From assembly GCA_035544215.1 (NCBI GenBank), contig DATKHY010000007.1, positions 310,001-374,000 of the forward strand: 64,000 bases of DNA. The letters run 5' to 3'. This DNA comes from Candidatus Binatia bacterium (GTDB taxonomy: Bacteria; Vulcanimicrobiota; Vulcanimicrobiia; Vulcanimicrobiales; Vulcanimicrobiaceae). The notes beneath the pieces were generated by a model, which ran no database searches, was not told where the DNA came from, and was given only the letters and a program-made list of their open reading frames with translations. A program made the position numbers and the translations under genes. Shown in pieces: positions 15,488 through 25,086 of the stretch (its first letter is position 1; every line of letters begins with the position of its first letter).

Positions 15488-15526
15488 ACTTTGCACTGCA
15501 AAGTCATTAACTTTGTATCACAAAGT
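15488..15526. promoter_or_regulatory. Two tandem palindromes, probable operator for creD and the TIR gene
   Basis: Palindrome 1 is ACTTTGCA-C-TGCAAAGT (15488-15504). Palindrome 2 is ACTTTGT-ATC-ACAAAGT (15510-15526). Both are perfect and share the half-site ACTTTG. Their centres are 22 bp apart, about two helical turns, so two dimers could bind the same face. The block is 27 bases from the creD start and about 50 from the TIR gene start. The cognate regulator is not in the window. Confidence 0.75.
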
Positions 15527-15577: not shown

Positions 15578-18247
15578 ATGGGCCGCCGCGCCGGGCGGAC
15601 CAAGCGGGGGATGAATCGCGACGTGTTCATATGCCACGCGAGCCCCGATGCTCGGACCGCCGAGGATATCTGCGCGCGCCTCGAATCGGACGGCGTTCTT
15701 TGCTGGATCGCGCCGCGCGATCCGACGGCGGGAATTCCGTACGCCCAACAGCTCGTGGGCGCGATCGAATCCACCCGCATTCTTCTGTTGGTCCTTTCAG
15801 CGCATGCCAACGCGTCACGCGCGGTTCTCAGCGAGGTGGAACTCGCGTCCAACCGCGGCAAGATCGTCTTGCCGGTGCGCATCGACGACGTGCCGCCTTC
15901 GCCCGGTCTCGAGTTCTACATCCGCGCGATCCACTGGTTCGACGCGACGCGGCCGGCAGAGCTCGCGTGGGCGGAGCTCGTGCGCCAAGTGCGCGAGCTC
16001 ATCGGGAGCGGCACCGAAGCCGCACCGGTCGTTCAAGCGCCGAGGATCGCGCAACACAACCTGCCGCTGGCGCTCACCTCGTTCGTCGGTCGCGATGCCG
16101 AGATCGCGCAGATTGAGAAGCTGCTGCAGTCGTCGCGCCTCGTGACGCTGTGCGGCCCCGGCGGCATCGGCAAGACGTCCCTCGCGATCGCCGTCGTGAG
16201 GCGGAATCTCGACGCCTATCGTGACGGTGCATGGTTCGTGGACCTCGCGCAGGTGCACGACGCCGCATCTTTCCTCCAGGCCTTCGCCGCGACGTTCGGT
16301 CTGCAAGAATCGCCGAGCCGCGAGACGATCGATCTGGTGATCGCTCATCTCAAGAACAGGCGAGTGCTGCTCGTCATCGACAACTGCGAACAGGTCGTCG
16401 TCGAAGCCGCGCGGATCGTCGAAGCGATCCTCCAAGCCTGCCCTTACGTCATAGTGGTCGCCACCACGCGCGAGCCGCTCGACATCCGTGGCGAAGAGGT
16501 GTTTCGCGTACCCTCGCTCGCCGTGCCCGACGAACGTTCGTCGCGCACGCTGAGCGCGGCGGCCGCGCTGGAGTACGGCGCGATCGAGCTCTTTGCAGAT
16601 CGCGCGCACGCCGCCAATCGATCATTCGCTCTAACGGATGAAAACGCGCCGGCGGTCGCGGCGATCTGCCGTCGGCTCGACGGCATCGCGCTTGCCATCG
16701 AGCTTGCCGCGGCGCGCGTGAAGGTGCTCTCGGTAAAGGGCGTCGCGTCCAGTCTCGACGAGCGCTTCGCGCTGCTCACCGGCGGGTCGCGCACGGCGCT
16801 CCCGCGGCAGAAGACGCTCCGGGCGATGATCGATTGGAGTTATGATCTGCTTTCGGAAAGAGAGCGCGTGCTGTTCCGCGGCCTCGCCGTCTTTGCGGGG
16901 AGCTTCACCCTGAGCGAGGCCGCGGCTGTCATAGAGCTCGAGCCGTCCGAGATACTCGATCGGCTCGCGTCGCTCATCGACAAGTCGCTTCTGCAGGCCG
17001 ATTTCACCGTCGAACCAACGCGGTACGCGCTGCTCGAGTCGATGCGAGCTTACGCGAACGAGAAGTTGCGCGAGCACGGAGAGCTCGCGTCGTTGAATCG
17101 CGCCCACGCCATGGCCTTCGCGGCTGCCGCCGAGGAATTGGAACGCGCGTTTGACACCATACCCGATGACGCCTGGCTGCGGCTTGCGGAGCCGCAGCTG
17201 GATAACTCGCGCGCCGCGCTGCGCTGGGCATTCGGACCGGACGGCGACGTCGCCCTGGGGCGTCGCCTCGTCGCCGCGTTGCGCCCGACCTGGTTCGCGA
17301 TGGCGCCGTCGGAAGGACAGCGCTGGATTGCGGTCGCGTTGGCGAGCCTCGACAGCGCGACTCCGACGGCGATCGCCGCTAAGCTTGCATTGTGCGAGGC
17401 GCATCTGGCCATGGTTTCCCAACAATACACCGCTGCGCTCCCGCAAGCGGAGCTGGCGAGTCAGCTCTTCGGCGAGCTCGGCGATCGCCAGGGAAGAGCA
17501 CTTGCGAACATGTTCGCGGGCGCAGCTCTCGGCATGCAGGGCGAGGTCGCCGAGGGAACTTCGCTGCTACAGGCTTCGCTGGAGGAGTTTCGCGCGAGCG
17601 GGTCGCGCCGAAACAGCGCCGCGGCGCTGAACTATCTCGGCATCTGTCAGCTGGTCTCCGGCAACGTCGCGGCCTCCCGCCCCTTCTTCTTCGAGGGGCT
17701 CGACTTACTGAAGTCCATCGGAGCGGCGCGACCGGCGGCCCACGTCGCGTCGTATCTCGCCGAGGCGGCGTTTCAAGACGGTGACCCGGCCGATGCCGCG
17801 CGGCTAGTTCGCGAGTCCCTGAGCGCCGAGCGGCGCCTCAACGAGCCAGATATGGTCGCCTTCGTTCTCTGCAACCTCGCCGCGTATCTCGTCGCGCTGG
17901 ATTCGTGGAACGACGCTCGCGACAGCGCGCAGGAGGCGCTGCAGCTGGCTCTCGACCGCGAGATCCCTGCGGCGACGGTCTGGGCGCTCCACCATCTCGC
18001 TGCGATCGCGGCGCTGCGCGCCGGCGACGACGAAGCGCAGGACCGGCGGCGCGCCGCGCGCCTCGCGGGTTTCGTCGACGGCCGCATCGCCGAACTGAAC
18101 CTTCCGCGCAACTTCACCGAGCAGGCCGAACACGAGCGGACTAGCGAAGCTATCGGCAATGCACTCGGTACCGAGGCCTCCGCGCTCAAGGAAGAGGGGC
18201 GAGGCTGGAGCGAGTCGCGCGCCGTGGAAGAAGCGCGCGCGATTTAG
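15578..18247 (+). CDS. TIR-STAND ATPase-TPR protein
   Basis: 889 residues from ATG 15578 (GAGGAAG upstream; ATG 15551 and 15611 are alternatives). Residues ~12-155 are a TIR_2 domain ('DVFICHASP', 'GVLCWIAPRD', then 'SAHANASRAVLSEVELA', whose Glu88 or Glu86 fits the catalytic Glu of TIR NADases). A STAND/NB-ARC-like ATPase follows: Walker A 'CGPGGIGKTSLA' near residue 193, Walker B 'VLLVIDNCEQ' near 265, sensor 'VATTREPL', GxP-like 'LDGIALAIELAAARV', then a winged helix ('WSYDLLSERERVLFRGLAVF'). The C-terminal ~300 residues are TPR-like. The layout fits an inducible NAD-consuming sensor or a signalling protein; which one is inference. Confidence 0.85.
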   Translation: MGRRAGRTKRGMNRDVFICHASPDARTAEDICARLESDGVLCWIAPRDPTAGIPYAQQLVGAIESTRILLLVLSAHANASRAVLSEVELASNRGKIVLPVRIDDVPPSPGLEFYIRAIHWFDATRPAELAWAELVRQVRELIGSGTEAAPVVQAPRIAQHNLPLALTSFVGRDAEIAQIEKLLQSSRLVTLCGPGGIGKTSLAIAVVRRNLDAYRDGAWFVDLAQVHDAASFLQAFAATFGLQESPSRETIDLVIAHLKNRRVLLVIDNCEQVVVEAARIVEAILQACPYVIVVATTREPLDIRGEEVFRVPSLAVPDERSSRTLSAAAALEYGAIELFADRAHAANRSFALTDENAPAVAAICRRLDGIALAIELAAARVKVLSVKGVASSLDERFALLTGGSRTALPRQKTLRAMIDWSYDLLSERERVLFRGLAVFAGSFTLSEAAAVIELEPSEILDRLASLIDKSLLQADFTVEPTRYALLESMRAYANEKLREHGELASLNRAHAMAFAAAAEELERAFDTIPDDAWLRLAEPQLDNSRAALRWAFGPDGDVALGRRLVAALRPTWFAMAPSEGQRWIAVALASLDSATPTAIAAKLALCEAHLAMVSQQYTAALPQAELASQLFGELGDRQGRALANMFAGAALGMQGEVAEGTSLLQASLEEFRASGSRRNSAAALNYLGICQLVSGNVAASRPFFFEGLDLLKSIGAARPAAHVASYLAEAAFQDGDPADAARLVRESLSAERRLNEPDMVAFVLCNLAAYLVALDSWNDARDSAQEALQLALDREIPAATVWALHHLAAIAALRAGDDEAQDRRRAARLAGFVDGRIAELNLPRNFTEQAEHERTSEAIGNALGTEASALKEEGRGWSESRAVEEARAI

Positions 18248-23714: not shown

Positions 23715-25016
23715 CTAGGGCGTAAGTTCGAAGGCCTCACCGTGGCCGAGCCTCCCGCCGCGTGAGGTCGTGCCGAAGAAGTCGCCTCCGCTCGCAAGTA
23801 GCGGAGCTACGGGCTCGGCGCCGCCCCCTCCGAGCGTTCCGGTGAACGGGAACTGCACCTGATACAGGGGCTTGCCGGACGGATCGAGGCTGAACGCAAC
23901 GCCGCAGCCCTGCTTGAGATTGAGCGAACACTTAGAGGCGCTTCCGCCGTAGCGCGTCGTGCCGTAAAGAACGCCGTTGTACGCGATCAGGCTCGCCGCC
24001 GGAGCCCCGCCGCCGGAAAAACTATGCAACACGCGCTCGGCGCCAGACGTGCTCACGCTATAGATCGTTCCGCAATGGCAGAAGTTGTGCTGCCCCCCGG
24101 CCGACGTCGTGCCATAAAGGACGCCGTTGAGCTCGATGACGCCGCTTCCGAGCGGATCGCATCCGTCGTGCGGGCCATACTGGAACTCGTGCAGCACCTG
24201 CTCCGCACCGGACGTGCTCATGCTGAAAACTGAGCCGCAATTTTCGCTCGATCCGCCCGAGCTGGTCGTGCCGTAGAGCGTGCCGTTATAATCGATCAGG
24301 TTTGCATACGGCGTGGCGCCGTCGTTCGGCCCACCGAAATCATGCAGCGTTTTCGCCGACGAGGCGGTCACGCCGATGCTAAAGGCGGTTCCCTTGCCGT
24401 ACGTGCCGCCTTCGCTCGTCGTGCCGTACAGCACGCGATGTATTTCGATCAGGCTCGCATACGGGTATCGGCCGTCGGTCTTAGTGGCGCCGAAGCTGTA
24501 CAGAACTCTTTCCACGTACTTGAAGGGCCGTGTTGTCGGTGTGAGCCTGAAGACGATTCCCTTACCGTAGGCCCCGCCGAGTACCGTCGTGCCGTAGAGG
24601 ACGCCCGTGCCCCGCGCGCCGACGATCAACGTGGCGCTGGGTTCGGCTCCGTCCTGACCGGTTGCGCCGTGAAACGTGTAGATGCGCGTCTCTTTGTATG
24701 GCCTGGTTCCCGTCTGCGGCGTAAGCTCGTAGACGAACCCGCAGCCGCGGTATCCGTCCCGGCACTTGAGATCTCCGCCGGCGGGTGCGACGCCGAAAAG
24801 CGCGGTGTTCGGGTCGCCGACAAGTCCGGCAGAACCGCCGGATTTTCCGATGAAGGTTTCCGCAAATGTGTAGCTGTGGAGCGGAACGACGTGCAACGTG
24901 GCGGGTCGCGCGCCGTCCGGCGCAAAGAGCGCTGCTGCCCCGGGCGACGGCGCGAGGCTGCCGCGGCCGCACGCCGTGACGGCGAGCACGCAGAATACGG
25001 CAAGTCGCATGCGCAT
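23715..25016 (-). CDS. GloVer (Gloeo_Verruco) repeat lipoprotein
   Basis: 433 residues. ATG 25016 lies six bases after AGAAGG. Lipobox 'VTAC'. At least seven repeats of about 45 residues follow the pattern 'LYGTT..GG..G.GT.F....' (for example 'VLYGTTSEGGTYGKGTAFSI' and 'TLYGTTSSGGSSENCGSVFS'). This is the tandem repeat named after Gloeobacter and Verrucomicrobia, thought to form an extracellular propeller-like surface. It ends seven bases from the stop of the converging Gly-rich gene. Function is unknown. Confidence 0.85.
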   Translation of the reverse strand: MRMRLAVFCVLAVTACGRGSLAPSPGAAALFAPDGARPATLHVVPLHSYTFAETFIGKSGGSAGLVGDPNTALFGVAPAGGDLKCRDGYRGCGFVYELTPQTGTRPYKETRIYTFHGATGQDGAEPSATLIVGARGTGVLYGTTVLGGAYGKGIVFRLTPTTRPFKYVERVLYSFGATKTDGRYPYASLIEIHRVLYGTTSEGGTYGKGTAFSIGVTASSAKTLHDFGGPNDGATPYANLIDYNGTLYGTTSSGGSSENCGSVFSMSTSGAEQVLHEFQYGPHDGCDPLGSGVIELNGVLYGTTSAGGQHNFCHCGTIYSVSTSGAERVLHSFSGGGAPAASLIAYNGVLYGTTRYGGSASKCSLNLKQGCGVAFSLDPSGKPLYQVQFPFTGTLGGGGAEPVAPLLASGGDFFGTTSRGGRLGHGEAFELTP

Positions 25017-25086
25017 ACACACCTTCTTTCAGAGGCAGGCAAGTACGCGCTTCCCCCTTGCGGGGGCGTTTCCTACTCAGGCGGTC

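Follow-up and report, generated by a model that had tools for sequence, protein, structure and literature searches.

A TIR-headed STAND-TPR protein with a regulator-type core as a candidate NADase receptor in a Vulcanimicrobiaceae genome

We analyzed a stretch of 64,000 nucleotides from Candidatus Binatia bacterium (contig DATKHY010000007.1, positions 310,001 to 374,000; hereafter the window), which contains a gene for a protein with a TIR domain, a STAND ATPase and a TPR tail in a single chain (Table 1). Two starts are possible: M1, preceded at 6 nt by a good ribosome-binding site (GAGGA) and matched by a Met at the corresponding place in the genome of the relative G005, or M12; other relatives begin closer to the TIR domain. 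A Pfam search with the 889 residues placed TIR_2 at residues 16–128 (E 4.5e-20), nSTAND1 at residues 168–298 (E 3.3e-9), NB-ARC over the ATPase part (E 8e-6) and TPR_12 in the C-terminal part (E 1.9e-7), all above their curated cut-offs, and AAA_22 also matched the ATPase part. The P-loop is accompanied by a Walker-B-like LLVIDN at residue 264. The AlphaFold2 model of the whole chain (mean pLDDT 85) contains a TIR domain of alternating strands and helices, an ATPase that includes helical and winged-helix-like regions, and, from about residue 500, a long regular superhelix of helix pairs. This confirms the architecture described in the first-pass annotation, which had recognized an N-terminal TIR_2 domain with a Glu in the catalytic position, a complete STAND-type P-loop ATPase, a winged helix and a TPR-like tail. 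As a molecular switch made of one protein, it resembles a plant TIR-type immune receptor.

Table 1. Features of the locus, in window coordinates
Feature	Position	Strand	Remarks
TIR-STAND-TPR protein	15578..18247	+	889 aa; alternative start M12 at 15611
TIR_2 domain, NADase-type fold, residues 12-143	15611..16006	+	Pfam, structure model, fold search, alignment
E86 codon	15833..15835	+	alignment; Glu invariant in 10 TIRs
STAND ATPase core (nucleotide-binding, helical, winged-helix-like parts), residues 158-500	16049..17077	+	
Walker A / P-loop GPGGIGKTS, residues 193-201	16154..16180	+	K199 invariant in 15 homologues
Arm and TPR superhelix, presumed sensor, residues 501-889	17078..18244	+	Pfam, model
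GloVer-repeat exported protein	23715..25022	-	lead, not established part

The first-pass annotation had also proposed that the protein consumes NAD, and comparison of the predicted TIR structure with TIR NADases is in line with this. With the AlphaFold2 model of the TIR part (pLDDT 81), VIA-align returned the SARM1 TIR as the top match (Z 18.4, 1.9 Å over 125 residues), followed by SPARTA TIR-APAZ (Z 17.6), plant RUN1/RPP1 and AbTir, and Foldseek returned the same groups with RPP1 first. A profile search against PDB sequences was led by Toll-related receptor TIRs, after which came TIR-STING, Cat1, MyD88, TIR-APAZ, SpbK, AbTir and SARM1. E86 lies within helix 81–92 of the model, the αC helix position of the catalytic Glu, and aligns with SARM1 E642. 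Both E86 and S80 are invariant in all 10 aligned TIRs, down to 21% identity; the conservation of the Glu among relatives, on which the earlier proposal had been made to depend, thus holds. Many TIR NADases carry an SxWxxxE motif, whose Trp is common, not universal. The corresponding stretch here reads S80-R-A82-V-L-S-E86, with Ala82 in place of the Trp, and none of the aligned TIRs (CWIAPRD-type relatives) has this Trp. Because E86 is invariant but the Trp is replaced, catalysis by this TIR domain is likely but not certain.

The missing Trp in this TIR subfamily, together with the good structural matches of the model to the TIRs of MyD88 and MAL, would also suit a non-enzymatic TIR that acts as an assembly scaffold and recruits a partner, as those two proteins do. 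We consider such a role improbable, since even the most divergent relatives retain the catalytic Glu without exception, an NADase (SARM1) is the top structural match and no adjoining gene encodes a partner with a TIR or adaptor domain.

Related TIR domains also occur in other settings. Two proteins (L113:7513-8604 in G042 and L114:7522-9009 in G058) have a TIR 49–52% identical to that of the window protein and no STAND; their TIR is followed by an apparent membrane segment and a different C-terminal part, so that they look like membrane-anchored members of the same TIR subfamily. In the same genome as the window, two shorter TIR_2 genes (L169; G000:C7:542584 and 544278; frames of 418 and 174 aa) lie about 1.5 kb apart on opposite strands and are possibly a separate TIR pair.

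The remainder of the chain belongs to a regulatory family. Relatives of the full protein were found in 71 of the 98 genomes searched in the phylum, with nearly all matches beginning past the TIR domain; among named genomes, the closest full-length relative belongs to Candidatus Eremiobacterota (L048), so that the window most likely derives from this phylum. For the non-TIR part, AfsR chains are the nearest solved sequences (E 1e-9), and the nearest fold to the full-length model is the STAND-TPR protein PH0952 (6mfv), followed by the TIR-NLR RPP1 tetramer and Apaf-1. In 15 homologues, no change is seen in the P-loop (including K199), at D268 or at R298. The core is thus homologous to the MalT/AfsR/PknK kind, with an ATPase with intact P-loop and a TPR sensor both present, but the cyclase, DNA-binding or kinase output expected of that kind is replaced by a TIR. 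Paralogues in the same genome are headed by Guanylate_cyc (four), an XRE-type HTH (two) or LuxR (one). We scanned 78 N-termini (50 from a broad genome scan, 27 from the phylum and that of the window protein) and found 43 cyclases, 14 Trans_reg_C and 12 HTH_31 domains and, more rarely, BTAD (3), protein kinase (2), LuxR (1) and TIR (1), the last being the window protein itself. On plasmids, 335 records match, and the best 25 all start at residue 139 or later, past the TIR; those named among these 25 are kinases, BTAD regulators or cyclase-domain proteins, and plasmid-borne copies of the TIR version were accordingly rejected among these best matches. The core is typical of signaling and transcription regulators, namely the MalT/AfsR/PknK-like STAND-TPR family, and unlike known antiviral STANDs.

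This family background gives weight to a reading in which the protein is a non-lethal signaling receptor without a defense role. The TIR would replace a class III cyclase and make an NAD-derived nucleotide messenger that regulates the cell, with neighboring exported GloVer-repeat proteins as possible targets. The cyclase, XRE or LuxR heads of the nearest paralogues, the predominance of cyclases and, among the other N-termini, of DNA-binding domains, and the kinases and BTAD regulators that hold the same place in the best plasmid matches all favor it, as does a GloVer-repeat subfamily that shares the three genomes of the gene (see below). Against it, the bacterial TIR enzymes described so far are, as a matter of general knowledge, mostly immune or cell-killing, and the distribution of the gene is patchy, unlike that of most housekeeping regulators. 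As the rest of the family is regulatory and a defense context was looked for and not found, signaling is in our view a serious, though rather unlikely, rival to defense.

The same general TIR-NBD-TPR layout could alternatively point to a known antiviral system (Avs, bNACHT, Thoeris, SPARTA or the FxSxx/VMAP TIR-AP-ATPase) that has simply gone unrecognized, and weak matches of this sort do exist. In a PADLOC search with the protein, however, these were limited to TIR stretches and a 57-residue P-loop stretch (best E 1.8e-6), leaving the rest of the STAND and the sensor unmatched, and the NCBIfam model NF040586 (FxSxx/VMAP-linked TIR AP-ATPase-TPR) scored 54 bits against a cut-off of 300. With a core that groups with MalT/AfsR/PknK-type proteins, membership in a known system is highly improbable.

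A maximum-likelihood tree of the ATPase part bears on how a TIR came to stand on this core. In it, the window protein, that of G005 and two of G016 form one fully supported clade, placed among cyclase- and HTH-headed proteins of the phylum, while the TIR-headed proteins G016:C34 and that of G019 fall elsewhere. The well-supported branches force at least two head changes, that is, separate joinings of such TIRs. G016:C34 (L107:7780-10431) is itself a chimera, with a TIR 73% identical to that of G016:C69 and a core only 40% identical, whereas the window protein and G016:C69 share 65% identity in both TIR and core. Other TIR types occur on the same core in G046 and G047. The strongest conclusion of our analysis is that the switch-sensor core descends from a cyclase- or DNA-binding-headed family and that the TIR is a swapped-in output. 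More tentatively, and in our view doubtfully, one STAND-TPR chassis may serve in this lineage as an exchangeable receptor platform for cyclic-nucleotide synthesis, transcription or TIR NAD cleavage, with TIR heads moving between distant chassis. A signaling family would then be turning into immune receptors inside a single genus, perhaps with exported GloVer-repeat proteins as partners.

The genome encodes four more TIR-ATPase-TPR proteins (L165-L168; G000:C3:209662, C3:641506, C7:864200 and C4:21170), in frames of 883–942 aa with an HCQAEW-like TIR type, a different ATPase and kinesin-light-chain-like TPRs. G016 and G005 have similar sets; most of the phylum's other genomes have few such proteins or lack them. 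Their presence fits an immune-like repertoire.

Of 18 genomes of the genus, 3 carry this TIR on the STAND core, and G016 has it three times. It is missing from G008, although the creD of G008 is nearer to that of the window than the G016 creD is. In G005, the orthologue occupies another place within the same syntenic block, beyond the GloVer-repeat gene, and creD there abuts a LolA-like gene. From this patchy presence and shifted place, the gene is accessory and has moved locally, in keeping with the first-pass annotation, which had assigned it to an accessory part of the window. The neighborhood varies among relatives; a fixed non-defense neighborhood, which had been named as counting against a defense gene, was not seen.

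The neighbors in the window are creD, a TonB receptor, a GNAT, glycosyltransferases, lipoproteins without a Pfam match, a DMT and a cyclophilin, with SAM metabolism and TonB genes farther out. A PADLOC search with ten of them gave no convincing match (one generic ABC ATPase, another hit at E 7e-4). The neighbors in relatives are housekeeping or secreted proteins (SufBD, SAM decarboxylase, ice-binding, methyltransferase and others), and PADLOC again found no clear match. A defense island was rejected, as the genome-context search around the window gene and its relatives found no recognized defense genes. One exception among the relatives' neighbors is a DUF4231 gene close to the TIR-STAND-TPR gene of G019 (L111:5175-6767); DUF4231 is related to SLATT, which has been proposed as a membrane effector of conflict systems. 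A scan of viral contigs with the TIR alignment, a single pattern of low sensitivity, confirmed no phage-borne copies.

Upstream of the gene, at 15488-15526, lie two tandem palindromes (ACTTTGN5CAAAGT) 22 bp apart, the sole exact copies in the genome. We considered them as an operator of the TIR gene and rejected this, since six genus relatives retain them at about 63 and 41 bp before creD, some copies differing by one base; these relatives include G005, where the TIR gene is not beside creD. The retrieved TIR-STAND homologues have no exact copy in their upstream regions. The palindromes belong to creD, as a putative conserved operator. The creD gene itself is split into two frames in G003 (L188:8836-9898) and has an in-frame TAG in G008 (L184), through either decay or assembly error.

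The gene is under purifying selection. Compared with G005 and two G016 copies, dN/dS is about 0.15–0.27 in the TIR, STAND and TPR parts alike (rough values, as dS exceeds 1), which indicates a gene under constraint and no chance frame. Constraint on the TIR is as strict as on the switch, which argues against a decayed or idle head. Identity in the TPR tail is 56–69%, versus 60–75% for the rest, and a tail only slightly less conserved gives no strong sign of a sensor arms race.

A GloVer-repeat gene in the window provides a lead to a partner. The family is large, with 44 matching stretches in the same genome and 103 in G016, but the close subfamily of this gene (72% and 64% identity; next best 44%) occurs besides the window only in G005 and G016. 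The TIR-STAND clade is present in exactly these three genomes, and its gene adjoins the subfamily member in both G005 and G016. Across these genomes, a GloVer-repeat gene lies within 1.5 kb of 6 of 15 TIR-STAND genes (both kinds) versus 2 of 25 non-TIR STAND paralogues (Fisher p 0.036), and of 3 of 4 genes in the window's clade alone (p 0.010). The test was post hoc, and contig ends as well as the large number of GloVer-repeat genes confound it. When only the genome of the window is considered, there is weak proximity at the 10-kb scale (p 0.02). Besides the gene in the window, GloVer-repeat genes beside TIR-STAND genes were noted at L108, L109 and L106. Pairing of the GloVer-repeat protein with the TIR-STAND receptor is a lead.

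Taken together, we favor, with a probability of roughly 0.55, a single-protein STAND receptor with ligand-triggered oligomerization and an NADase-type TIR output, most likely for self-limiting defense. In PH0952 and MalT, the resting ADP-closed form is kept by NBD-arm and NBD-sensor contacts, and STANDs with TPR sensors multimerize in the ATP-open form after inducer binding (PMC6468293). By analogy, the C-terminal TPR superhelix would bind a ligand and free the ADP-locked ATPase, which would take up ATP and oligomerize; the N-terminal TIRs would be brought together and become active as NADases, leading to NAD depletion or an ADP-ribose product in a self-limiting (abortive) response to a phage or other intruder. 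We infer the ligand, the ATP-driven assembly, the TIR clustering, the NAD cleavage and the defense role from established STAND and TIR biology. Defense is plausible, and the most likely single purpose. The SARM1 match, the PH0952-like full-length fold, the invariant E86, K199, D268 and R298, the patchiness, the changed local position, the three G016 copies, the low dN/dS and the four further TIR-ATPase-TPR proteins speak for this receptor reading; the lack of adjoining defense genes, the regulator-type core, Ala82 and a TPR tail nearly as conserved as the rest speak against it. Of the earlier interpretation as a defense gene, the NADase-fold TIR with its conserved Glu, the STAND-TPR switch, the self-contained single gene and the patchy occurrence stand; a defense island and an antiviral-STAND core are not supported.

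Bacterial TIR-NBD-TPR proteins are often called relatives of plant immune receptors, and their origin is rarely visible. Here, paralogues in one genome join a single core to cyclase, HTH, LuxR or TIR outputs, and a clear TIR transplant is seen in a sister genome; together they make a natural comparison set. Provided that the TIR is indeed an active NADase, the gene is also a candidate defense system in a phylum with little experimental work. A full-text literature search found no paper with both ‘TIR-STAND’ and ‘antiphage’, and none with Eremiobacterota and ‘TIR domain’.

Among known systems, SARM1, AbTir, SPARTA TIR-APAZ and Cat1 share the TIR fold and the Glu in the catalytic position, but couple them to other switches (ARM/SAM, Argonaute, a CRISPR signal), and the SxWxxxE Trp is absent here. 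The antiviral STANDs (Avs, bNACHT) have the same tripartite layout of effector, STAND and sensor (PMC10907252), but no PADLOC match covers the full STAND or sensor of the present protein. Plant TIR-NLRs (RPP1, Roq1) and TNPs agree in the order TIR-NBD-repeat and in an overall fold match. They are distant in sequence, however, TNLs carry LRRs in place of the TPRs found here, and no EDS1-type partner is known for the present protein. Cell death by a maize TNP requires both the NADase site and the P-loop (PMC9806590). The MalT/AfsR/PknK/PH0952 regulators have a homologous ATPase and TPR, as seen in the AfsR match, the PH0952 fold and the PknK-type plasmid kinases, and differ in their DNA-binding, cyclase or kinase output. 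TIR-NB-ARC/AP-ATPase-TPR proteins have already been described in bacteria (PMC7159879, PMC9153377, PMC9806590), likewise with a TIR head, a STAND-type ATPase and a TPR tail in one chain; theirs is an ATPase of the AP-ATPase/NB-ARC type, whereas the core here is that of the cyclase/AfsR/PknK-headed STAND family. The TIR-NBD-TPR layout is thus already known in bacteria, and the present protein is a variant of it with a different core.
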